Source: Candidatus Cloacimonadota bacterium
Lineage (GTDB): Bacteria > Cloacimonadota > Cloacimonadia > Cloacimonadales > Cloacimonadaceae
Direction: 5' to 3'
DNA: 64,000 nucleotides
Assembly: GCA_012522635.1 (NCBI GenBank)
Contig: JAAYKA010000023.1
Location: 1-64,000, forward strand
Position 1 is the stretch's first letter, and each line of letters opens with the position of its first letter. Position numbers and translations under genes: made by a program. Positions 1 through 46,336 of the stretch are shown here, one piece after another. A model generated the notes under the pieces. It did no database searches and was not told where the DNA came from. It was given only the letters and a program-made list of their open reading frames with translations.

Positions 1-623
1 CCTATTTCGCAAACACGCTCTACGTCTCCTTCTTCACGCTCATCGGGGTTTTAATCAGCTCCGTTTTGGCGGCTTACGCCTTCGCGCGGCTGGAATTCAA
101 AGGCAAAGACCTGCTTTTCTACCTCTTCTTGAGCATGATGATGGTGCCGGAACCCATCTATATCATTTCATCATATATTATGTTGGATAAATTCAACTGG
201 CTGGACACCTACAACGCGCTCATCATTCCCTGGTGCGTGAATATCTTCACCATCTTTTTGTTCAGGCAACACTTTAAAAGCTTGCCTCAAGAGCTTTTCG
301 ACGCGGCTTCAATCGATGGCTGCAGCACTTTCGGAATGCTCACCCGTGTGGTTTTGCCACTTTCGAAAGGGGTGATGGCCACCGCTGCTGTTTTTTCCGT
401 GATCGGTTCTTGGAACAGCTTCATGTGGCCATTGGTGATGACCGACCGCCCTGAATTACGCGTTTTACAAGTGGGTCTCAGCTATTTCAATCAGGAAGCT
501 TCCACACAGACCACTCTGTTGATGGCTGCCTCCACATTTAGCATTGTGCCCATACTCATCATCTTTTTCCTGGCCCAAAAACAGATTATCGCCAGCTATG
601 CCAAAGCTGGCTTGAAAGATTAA
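1..623 (+). CDS. Carbohydrate ABC transporter permease, MalG/UgpE type (5' end cut by window edge)
   Basis: Inner-membrane permease subunit of an ABC importer for sugars or sugar-like solutes. The reading frame is open from base 3, so the N-terminus lies outside the window. What is visible is almost entirely hydrophobic helices in the binding-protein-dependent permease fold. The EAA loop that docks the ATPase is recognisable as ELFDAASIDGCSTFGM followed by RVVLPLSK. The ending AKAGLKD resembles the usual MalG/UgpE ending. The partner permease, ATPase and binding protein should lie to the left of the window. The next gene begins 13 bases downstream, so the two are probably co-transcribed. The substrate cannot be told from the permease alone. 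Confidence 0.9.
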   Translation, partial: YFANTLYVSFFTLIGVLISSVLAAYAFARLEFKGKDLLFYLFLSMMMVPEPIYIISSYIMLDKFNWLDTYNALIIPWCVNIFTIFLFRQHFKSLPQELFDAASIDGCSTFGMLTRVVLPLSKGVMATAAVFSVIGSWNSFMWPLVMTDRPELRVLQVGLSYFNQEASTQTTLLMAASTFSIVPILIIFFLAQKQIIASYAKAGLKD

Positions 624-43427: not shown

Positions 43428-44429
43428 ATGAGAAAGACCTTGAGCCTGTTGTGTGCCCTGCTACTACTTTTGGCTGCATGCCCCAGGCAAGAAAAACCTG
43501 CCTCAACCCCCAAAAACGCAGCTATGGACAGCACGGAATTGGAGAAGGAGGGTCTCTTTAAAATGCGCTATAGGCTGAAATGGCTGGATCAGGCACAGTT
43601 TGCCGGGGCTTACGTAGCCTTGGAGAAAGGTTTTTATCTCAAACGTGGCTTGGATGTGGAAATTTTGGAAGGCGGTCCGGATCATCTGCTTTACGGCTCG
43701 CTTTTGGATTCAAGCGCGGATGTGGTGAGCTTACACCTCCTTTTGGGGATGAACTATTTCAACAGCCCAAGACAGGTGGTGAACATCGGGCAGACCTTTC
43801 AAAAAAGCGCCACCCTGTTGGTGGGAAAAAAGAGCTCGGGGATTCGAGATCTGAAAGATTTGGCAGGGAAAAAAGTTGGTGTCTGGCGAGGACAAAGCTA
43901 TGTCCGCTATTTTTTGGACAGGCAAGATTTGGGCATCCGGGCCATTCCAATCGATTGGAGCGTTAACCTTCTTCTCAGCAACGCTGTGGACATGATGAAC
44001 GCCACCTCCTACAACGAATATCACCGCATCCTGATGGCAGGATTGGACGAAGAGGATCTGACTGTTTTCAGCCTGGCAGAACTGGGATTCAACGTGGTTG
44101 AGGATGGGCTGTATGTTTTGAAAGATTATTATCAAAAACACCCTCAACAATGCAGGGATTTTGCCGAGGCAACTCAGGAAGGCTGGCTTTACGCCTTTGA
44201 AAACCAGGAGGAAACTCTCCAAATCGTTACCGAAAGAATGCGCAGCAACCATCGCCCCACAAACATCGGACACCAACGATGGATGCTTCAACATTTGCAA
44301 GACCTTGTTTTGGGAGCCGGGGAGCCGGGAATACTGCAAAAAAGCGATTTGGATTTTGCAAACCAGATTCTAATGGAAAACGGAGAACTGGACAAACCCA
44401 TCCCCTATGAGGAGTTCTGCCCACGATGA
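43428..44429 (+). CDS. NMT1/THI5-like substrate-binding lipoprotein
   Basis: A 333-residue lipoprotein with the lipobox LLAAC (C18). The mature part is a type-II periplasmic binding fold of the NMT1/THI5 class: RLKWLDQAQFAGAYVALEKG, FYLKRGLDVEILEGG, LLVGKKSSGIRDLKDLAGKK and VGVWRGQ. Such proteins bind pyrimidines, thiamine precursors, sulfonates or similar small molecules. No permease or ATPase gene is nearby. Instead it overlaps the following membrane phosphatase gene by 4 bases, so it more likely acts as the sensing subunit of that phosphatase than as a transporter part. SD AAGGATG lies upstream. The 172-base gap before it has only weak promoter-like TTGACT (43327). Confidence 0.83.
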   Translation: MRKTLSLLCALLLLLAACPRQEKPASTPKNAAMDSTELEKEGLFKMRYRLKWLDQAQFAGAYVALEKGFYLKRGLDVEILEGGPDHLLYGSLLDSSADVVSLHLLLGMNYFNSPRQVVNIGQTFQKSATLLVGKKSSGIRDLKDLAGKKVGVWRGQSYVRYFLDRQDLGIRAIPIDWSVNLLLSNAVDMMNATSYNEYHRILMAGLDEEDLTVFSLAELGFNVVEDGLYVLKDYYQKHPQQCRDFAEATQEGWLYAFENQEETLQIVTERMRSNHRPTNIGHQRWMLQHLQDLVLGAGEPGILQKSDLDFANQILMENGELDKPIPYEEFCPR

Positions 44430-46336
44430 AAATGAAGAAAAAGACCCAGAGATTGAGCTCTCAATTAATCGGACAGCTTTTATTGTTCATGGCGGTTCTC
44501 TTCGTTTCTCTGCTTTTTGTGATTTTGAGAATGCTTTTCGATGTGGAAAGAACAAACCAGGAAGAGTCAATCTCAAACCTGGTGGAAAGCAATGTCCAGA
44601 TTATTGATCGCAATCTTTCGGGGATAATTTCGTTGGCAAAAAATCTGCAAAGTGTGGTGAATGATGGGGTTTACGATGATGCTCAAATCCAGCGCCACAT
44701 CCACCATCTTTTGCTGGATAACCCCGTCCTGACTTCGGCTTGCCTGGCTTATTTTGAACCAAATTCATCACATGCCACCACTTTCACCCTGAAAGAACAA
44801 AGAATTAATGCTAATCAAAGCGTGAGCGACGATTTTTTGTTCAAAGATTGGTACCAGATTCCATGGCTGACGGGACGACCATACTGGAGCGATCCATGGT
44901 ATGACGGCGAAGGAACAAAAACCATTGTTTGTTCCTACAGTATCCAACTGACCAAAAAGGGAAAAAACCTTGGTATTATCAGGTTGGATCTGCCCTTGGC
45001 AAACCTGCGCAGAATTGTTGTTAAAATGCGGGTCAAGGAAAGCGGGACGGCTTTTTTGGTGGGCTCAAACGGCATGATTATGGCCCATCCCCGCGACAGC
45101 CTGGCAATGAACTATACAGTCTTCGACCTGGTTAACCTCACCCCCACAAAAGAGATGAGGGAAGTGGCAAAACGAGTGGTGAGAGGAGAGCAAGGTTTTG
45201 AGCGTGGCCGAGACCTGGGAAACATTGACGACAGTTGGATTGCGTTTCATCCCCTGCCCTCAAATAGTTGGTCACTGGTGGCGATGGTTCCTCATCGCGA
45301 GGTTTTCGCGCATTTGCGCTATCTAAGCATCATTCTTTCTCTGGCAGTCCTGTTTGGGTTTTTGGTTTTGGCGTTCATGCTCTGGTTCAGGGTCCAAACG
45401 TTGAATGAGCCACTCATGGATTTGGTGGAGGGAATCAAACTGGCAGGCGCGGGAGACCTGAGCCCATCGCCACCGATTGAGTCAGAATCCTATGAAGTCC
45501 AAGTGATTGCTGAAAACTTTGAAGCGATGAAGAGTTCACTAAGCACGCATATTGAAAACCTGAAAGAACTGACCCAGGAAAAGAATCGCATCAGCGCAGA
45601 ACTGGCTTTTGCCTCCAACGTTCAAAGAAGCCTGATCCCAAACGGTAACACCAGCAAGCCCCCCAACCTTGATGTTTATGGACTTCTGGAGCCAGCCGGC
45701 ATGGTAGGAGGTGACCTTTTTGACTATTTCATGGTTGATAATCGACGCTTCCTTTTTGCAATCGCGGACGTTGTGGGCAAGGGTGTAGGCGCCGCGATGA
45801 CCATGACCATGGCCACCACACTTCTGCGCAACATCGCGCCCAACCATGAAAAACCGCAAACGATTTTGAGCGAATTGAACACCTTTTTCATGAGCCACAA
45901 GTTGGAAGCTGGCTATTTGACCATGGCGTTGGGAATTATCGATCTTGTTAGCGGAGTTTGCGTATTTTCAAACGCGGGACACCTGCCACTATATATTTTA
46001 GGTAATGATGGCCAAATCCACAAACACGAGCGCACACACTCCACGGCGCTTGGCTTTTTTGAGAATATCAAAATTAAAAGTGAGGAATTCACACTCACAG
46101 CCGGAGATAAAATTCTGCTGGTGACAGACGGTGTAACAGAAGCCACGAATCCAAACGAACACCTCTTTGGAACTCAAGGGCTGGAAAGAACCCTGGCACA
46201 GTTGAAGGGCGTCTCAGCCGAGAAAACAACCAATGCAATCCTGGAAGCAGTTTTAGATTTTGCCGACCCGGAGAAGGGACGCGACGACATCACCATCCTG
46301 GCAATAGAATATCTGGGCAACTTGCAAGAGTCTTAA
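44426..46336 (+). CDS. Membrane sensor phosphatase: extracytoplasmic sensor, HAMP, SpoIIE/PP2C domain
   Basis: A 636-residue RsbU/SpoIIE-type serine phosphatase. The first membrane helix is at about 13-35. A Cache-like extracytoplasmic sensor follows (about 40-285; WYQIPWLTGRPYWSDPWYDG, IIRLDLPLANLR, VGSNGMIMAHP). The second helix is at about 293-316, then a HAMP segment. A PP2C domain (about 395-633) has metal-binding motifs EPAGMVGGDLFDYF, FAIADVVGKGVGAAM, FSNAGHLPLYI and GRDDITILAI. It should dephosphorylate an anti-sigma-factor antagonist, but no such gene is in the window. Coupling to the upstream binding lipoprotein suggests ligand-controlled stress signalling. Confidence 0.88.
   Translation: MKMKKKTQRLSSQLIGQLLLFMAVLFVSLLFVILRMLFDVERTNQEESISNLVESNVQIIDRNLSGIISLAKNLQSVVNDGVYDDAQIQRHIHHLLLDNPVLTSACLAYFEPNSSHATTFTLKEQRINANQSVSDDFLFKDWYQIPWLTGRPYWSDPWYDGEGTKTIVCSYSIQLTKKGKNLGIIRLDLPLANLRRIVVKMRVKESGTAFLVGSNGMIMAHPRDSLAMNYTVFDLVNLTPTKEMREVAKRVVRGEQGFERGRDLGNIDDSWIAFHPLPSNSWSLVAMVPHREVFAHLRYLSIILSLAVLFGFLVLAFMLWFRVQTLNEPLMDLVEGIKLAGAGDLSPSPPIESESYEVQVIAENFEAMKSSLSTHIENLKELTQEKNRISAELAFASNVQRSLIPNGNTSKPPNLDVYGLLEPAGMVGGDLFDYFMVDNRRFLFAIADVVGKGVGAAMTMTMATTLLRNIAPNHEKPQTILSELNTFFMSHKLEAGYLTMALGIIDLVSGVCVFSNAGHLPLYILGNDGQIHKHERTHSTALGFFENIKIKSEEFTLTAGDKILLVTDGVTEATNPNEHLFGTQGLERTLAQLKGVSAEKTTNAILEAVLDFADPEKGRDDITILAIEYLGNLQES

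Follow-up and report, generated by a model that had tools for sequence, protein, structure and literature searches.

An NMT1/THI5-type substrate-binding lipoprotein and a membrane-bound Cache/SpoIIE (PP2C) sensor phosphatase, encoded by overlapping genes in a Candidatus Cloacimonadota bacterium, probably form a two-part receptor, in which the binding protein would act on the double Cache (dCache) domain of the phosphatase, and the PP2C domain on a STAS protein encoded on another contig (C119) of the same genome. The genes lie in a stretch of 64,000 nucleotides (the window), and all features described below are on its + strand. In the ORF list, the binding protein (333 aa) occupies positions 43428-44429 and the phosphatase (636 aa) positions 44426-46336. 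The stop codon of the former and the start codon of the latter are merged in an ATGA (44426-44429), which is the 4-base overlap described in an initial annotation made from the DNA letters. As that annotation also stated, there is no ABC permease or ATPase gene beside the pair among the ORFs and profile matches of the window. The pair is preceded by pyrG and followed by acyltransferase, polysaccharide-deacetylase-like, and lon genes (the last two named from sequence), and scans for promoters and terminators returned numbers at chance level only. A close relative (locus L038, genome G020) displays 77-79% identity over the gene pair. At the start of the window (3-623), a MalG-like sugar ABC permease gene is cut by the contig end; BPD permease matches in the genome number only four, this one included.

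The binding protein (43428-44429) belongs to the NMT1/THI5-like family PF09084, as assessed by profile search (E 1.9e-28, 100.3 bits versus a curated cut-off of 20.5), and its AlphaFold2 model is two-lobed (pLDDT 92.5). The best match by both fold and sequence is a thiamin-bound binding protein (4nmy, fold E 3e-21), and the model is nearest to thiamin-/pyrimidine-binding proteins (4nmy, 3ix1, and THI5). A linked ATPase and permease, by which the binding protein of an ABC transporter would be recognized, were found neither in the window nor in an ORF survey around the relatives. The hydrophobic leader ends in LAAC; reading of the sequence and comparison with orthologs predict a signal peptide and lipobox (43428-43481) with a lipidated Cys18. 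The lipid anchor posited initially stands in family f1, in which nearly all orthologs have an N-terminal Cys of the lipid-anchor type, but falls in family f10. Because five of the six f10 orthologs have no lipobox, lipid anchoring is, judging by these sequences, not part of the conserved design.

The phosphatase (44426-46336) has a TM-dCache-TM-HAMP-SpoIIE/PP2C architecture. Two hydrophobic stretches, each forming a helix in the AlphaFold2 model (pLDDT 84.4), correspond to the transmembrane helices (approximately 44468-44533 and 45314-45385), which flank the extracytoplasmic double Cache domain (∼aa 40-292, 44543-45301). That this domain is Cache-like, as first proposed, is supported by the model, whose fold matches are dCache sensors and the PP2C domain of SiaA, and by profile comparison with solved structures (dCache match 3li8, 5e-34). 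Although the dCache_1 score is just below the Pfam cut-off (44.3 versus 45 bits), that of MCP-like_PDC_1 is above it (38.9 versus 27). Amino acid-binding dCache_1 sensors have a conserved motif of the Arg-x-Trp-Tyr type; here, most orthologs have K, Q, L, or A at the residue two positions before Trp142. The second transmembrane helix leads into a HAMP and coiled-coil linker (∼aa 325-403, 45398-45634), seen as long helices in the model and as matches of the family profile to solved HAMP domains (1e-8 to 1e-9). The catalytic SpoIIE/PP2C domain (45668-46312) matches PF07228 (E 4.2e-46, 157.8 bits versus a cut-off of 25) and has its catalytic metal-binding Asp residues: Asp430, Asp448, Asp568, Asp620, and Asp621 are invariant across 46 family members.

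The search for binding-protein orthologs covered 107 genomes of the order and 125 of the phylum. In all 43 pairs from the order, the stop of the binding-protein gene lies inside or against the start of the phosphatase gene, often by 4 or 11-14 bases, and the same overlap is seen in 7/7 loci of family f13 (50/50 in total). As judged by genome comparison, these counts confirm that the gene arrangement is real, rather than the product of chance. The genes around the pair change: pyrG is found in most of genus g1 and in g2, g4, and g5 (flank identities were partly judged from sequence), methylmalonyl-CoA mutase-type genes in g8, and unrelated genes in g3, g6, g10, f10, and f13. Because the overlap is kept while the flanks differ between lineages, the two genes move, on this sequence evidence, as a unit. 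No ABC transporter gene was found beside the orthologs in the ORF survey, and nowhere in the phylum was the binding protein of a relative associated with an ABC transporter in place of the phosphatase, the pattern that would speak against the coupling. There is one clear exception, in G026, where the phosphatase gene directly follows pyrG at the same site and the binding-protein gene is gone, which implies a loss, given the position of this phosphatase in the phosphatase tree. Because G026 kept its phosphatase, the binding protein may be a sensitizer that is not essential. Several other relatives have Cache-PP2C genes without an adjoining binding-protein gene (L098 and L118), and in G059 an NMT1 gene adjoins a hybrid histidine kinase gene instead. 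In G021 (L093, 783-1842), the NMT1 gene reads as two overlapping frames beside the phosphatase start, a break that may be a sequencing error.

In a tree including transport and kinase-linked NMT1 relatives, all phosphatase-linked proteins, including that of a gammaproteobacterial plasmid (pTs417 of Candidatus Thiodictyon syntrophicum), form one clade (99/97; 200/200 bootstrap trees), which adjoins ABC transport proteins. The latter (from Klebsiella, Azospirillum, Deinococcus, and Thalassospira plasmids) are 30-36% identical to the window binding protein. They are mostly encoded beside dihydropyrimidinase genes (in the loci of 6 of 8 examples), with an ATPase and two permeases, whereas the window binding protein is without these. 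The invariant or nearly invariant residues of the phosphatase-linked clade include W52, Q55, Q57, F58, Q122, W153, N196, E197, W253, and Q283, nearly all of which are common to the neighboring transport proteins. Because the clade adjoins mostly dihydropyrimidinase-linked proteins and shares invariant residues with them, the ligand is probably pyrimidine-like, and we infer from the tree and alignments that the sensor arose by recruitment of a pyrimidine-type importer component that kept its predicted binding site. Positions specific to the phosphatase-linked proteins (L104, F162, N279, L287, and F330) were considered as interface residues and were too few for a claim.

Comparison between genomes connects the pair to partner switching. 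The pair in f10 and f13 is continued by genes encoding HATPase_c_2 (RsbW-like) and STAS (RsbV-like) proteins, which makes the set of switch components complete, and several of these operons add a second phosphatase with a 5TM-LYT sensor and a family-3 binding protein. On pTs417, genes for STAS, NMT1, Cache-HAMP-SpoIIE, and HATPase proteins occur in a row. Phosphatase, STAS, and HATPase genes are thus together in these loci, and the source genome has its STAS/HATPase genes on another contig. In this metagenome-assembled genome (1.84 Mb in 152 contigs, ∼96% complete, and further SpoIIE/STAS genes may be absent from the assembly), the window phosphatase is the only SpoIIE protein found. STAS searches yielded a single match, a protein of 102 aa whose gene accompanies that of a REC-HATPase_c_2 protein on C119, a locus of the kind that the initial annotation proposed to look for elsewhere in the genome. 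The two C119 genes overlap (L041, 8434-9659). In relatives from several families of the order, the STAS/REC-HATPase pair lies between a fusA-like gene and prmC-murA (names from sequence), an unexpected place for a signaling switch. Each of 12 f1 genomes with the binding-protein/phosphatase pair has a single SpoIIE match and a single standalone STAS, a count that leaves out further STAS matches in frames of 360-390 aa, which were set aside as partners because their length suggests STAS-transporter fusions. Ser55, the predicted phospho-acceptor, is invariant in C119-type STAS proteins, and the operon STAS proteins of the relatives also have a conserved phospho-acceptor Ser; a Bacillus SpoIIAA sequence served only as a guide in the alignment. 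N and G boxes are present in the C119 REC-HATPase and in the f10/f13 HATPase_c_2 proteins.

By elimination, the C119 STAS protein is the most likely substrate of the phosphatase in the source genome. Among other candidates, a HATPase protein on contig C20 was rejected as kinase partner, its gene sitting, by eye, between genes for a DRTGG-like and an iron-sulfur/hydrogenase-like protein. Many f1 genomes have an extra small STAS gene in sugar nucleotidyltransferase-/glycosyltransferase-like clusters (L101-L108); these proteins were not retained as partners, the clusters being without PP2C genes. The STAS/REC-HATPase genes persist in genomes without the NMT1-phosphatase pair (G028, G032, G033, and G040), where other SpoIIE proteins occur, and for this reason they probably take input from more than one phosphatase. 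The source genome encodes three sigma-70 family proteins (a large RpoD-like, a 291-aa RpoS/RpoD-like, and an ECF protein) and one GGDEF protein, and none of these genes is linked to the pair. Of the two-part receptor acting on an anti-sigma partner switch that was proposed initially, the gene coupling and the link to the switch are strongly supported by comparison, but the output may end on something other than a sigma factor, as no sigma gene is linked.

The preferred scheme would run as follows. The NMT1-type protein would catch a small molecule, probably pyrimidine-like, outside the inner membrane, and the ligand-loaded form would dock on the dCache domain of the phosphatase encoded with it. 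Transmission through the HAMP/coiled-coil linker would then alter the activity of a cytoplasmic PP2C dimer, a step that agrees with the linker signaling mechanism shown for RsbU (PMC12143880). The C119 STAS protein would be kept phosphorylated by the REC-HATPase_c_2 protein of the neighboring gene until the PP2C domain removes the phosphate from Ser55 of what is the only STAS protein detected in the genome. Freed STAS would then displace whatever the REC-HATPase, or another partner, holds. We infer here the contact between the two proteins, the class of ligand, the sign of the response, the identification of STAS as the substrate, and the ultimate target; the gene coupling, the domain architecture, the intact catalytic and phospho-acceptor residues, and the co-occurrence of the genes can be read from the sequences themselves. 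That the STAS/REC-HATPase genes do not adjoin the pair in f1 counts against this explanation, as do their persistence where the pair is absent, the loss in G026, and the Cache-PP2C genes of other relatives that adjoin no binding-protein gene.

Three other readings were weighed. The phosphatase might sense a ligand of its own through its dCache domain, the binding protein being a non-essential neighbor or a competitor for the same molecule that makes no contact. Binding of ligands by dCache domains is usually direct, and the G026 phosphatase is intact after loss of its partner. Moreover, a binding-protein gene next to a sensor gene does not always have a functional link to it: AgtS and AruS of P. 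aeruginosa showed no contact with the neighboring binding proteins (PMC11113362). We nevertheless regard this reading as unlikely, considering that the overlap was kept through relocations in 50/50 pairs from several families and that unrelated families of binding proteins also adjoin Cache-PP2C genes (L060 and L133, described below). In addition, CuaDSR offers a precedent for a sensor that works without its binding protein and works better with it (PMC10384115).

It is very unlikely that the binding protein is an ordinary transport protein for an unlinked NMT1-type ABC permease, having only transcription in common with the phosphatase. The source genome does encode a TauC/SsuC/SaoP-like permease, alone on contig C72, and an ATPase on C47, and the nearest relatives examined outside Cloacimonadota are ABC transport proteins. 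However, the C47 ATPase is already provided with an NMT1 binding protein, the two genes overlapping by 4 bp. The ORF survey shows no ABC gene next to any ortholog of the window binding protein, but the phosphatase gene next to it in each of the 50 loci, and in the tree the phosphatase-linked clade is separate from the transport proteins. The idea that the pair is a receptor whose substrate is another protein than the C119 STAS draws on the persistence of STAS/REC-HATPase genes alongside other SpoIIE proteins where the pair is absent, and on the STAS and HATPase proteins of the f10/f13 operons, which are of a different subfamily from those of C119. It strikes us as highly improbable, as no other standalone STAS or SpoIIE protein was found in the source genome or in 11 relatives with the same composition.

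The receptor favored here resembles several characterized systems in part. As in CuaDSR, XylFII-LytS, LuxP-LuxQ, and TorT-TorS, a dedicated, non-transport binding protein is encoded beside a membrane sensor and, by analogy, would present its ligand to the extracytoplasmic domain of that sensor. In those three-component systems the output is a histidine kinase, whereas here the output domain is the SpoIIE/PP2C phosphatase of a partner switch. SiaA of P. aeruginosa and Chlamydia RsbU have the same two TM helices, extracytoplasmic sensor, and PP2C domain, with a HAMP domain in SiaA, whose structure (6k4e) is among the closest solved PP2C folds. The window phosphatase scores far below the cut-off of the SiaA model NF038263 (70.7 versus 700 bits), and a binding-protein partner of SiaA/RsbU phosphatases is not described in the literature searched, whereas here there is an adjoining gene for a putative one. 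Within the phylum, NMT1-histidine kinase fusions (G005, G010, and G015) also use an NMT1 domain as sensor, but it is joined to a kinase and comes from a different NMT1 branch. In G015, such a fusion, which includes a PAS domain, adjoins a REC-PP2C-HATPase_c_2 protein (L053, 7056-11442), which represents, as read from the sequence, another route by which an NMT1 sensor is connected to partner switching.

Other kinds of binding proteins are found in similar company. G003 has consecutive genes for SBP_bac_8, Cache-HAMP-PP2C, HATPase_c_2, STAS, and GPP34 proteins (L060, 3806-8444). A lipid-binding protein of the Golgi belongs to the GPP34 family, and GPP34-like genes are found again close to operons of this type in G078, G070, G004, and G037. 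On the Aureimonas plasmid pAU20a (L133, 4101-7330), a Cache-HAMP-SpoIIE gene has a 4-base overlap with a PF04392 binding-protein gene, and there is no permease gene nearby. In G106, a Cache-HAMP-PP2C gene adjoins genes for an SBP_bac_3-permease fusion, an ATPase-like protein, and STAS. Two family-3 binding proteins encoded beside Cache-PP2C genes have a C-terminal cytidine/dCMP deaminase match (L048, 8285-9490; L113, 2568-3701). Because several families of binding proteins adjoin Cache-PP2C genes and NMT1-kinase fusions also occur, binding proteins are, on the evidence of these loci, recurrent input parts for PP2C partner switches. A plausible, if tentative, extension is a general modular class in Cloacimonadota and Pseudomonadota, in which a Cache-HAMP-PP2C chassis would be combined with varied binding proteins (NMT1, SBP_bac_8, SBP_bac_3, and PF04392), each of them informing a STAS/HATPase switch about a different molecule, and the NMT1 member would derive from a pyrimidine-type importer.

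Receptors known to be activated by binding proteins are chemoreceptors, histidine kinases, protein kinases, and (diguanylate) cyclases/phosphodiesterases, and phosphatases are not among them (PMC11113362). We found no description of a PP2C phosphatase controlled by a binding protein in the open-licence literature, the range searched, in line with the earlier remark that pairing with an RsbU-like phosphatase is little described. Both halves are of known kinds, and it is their combination that appears new; a two-part sensor of this sort has apparently not been reported earlier. Signals are known for only a minority of bacterial receptors, and membrane PP2C sensors are no exception; a dedicated binding protein, being soluble and screenable, would offer a direct route to the signal of such a phosphatase. 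The pair supports the view that sensor parts are exchangeable among kinases, cyclases, and phosphatases via a shared coiled-coil linker (PMC12143880).
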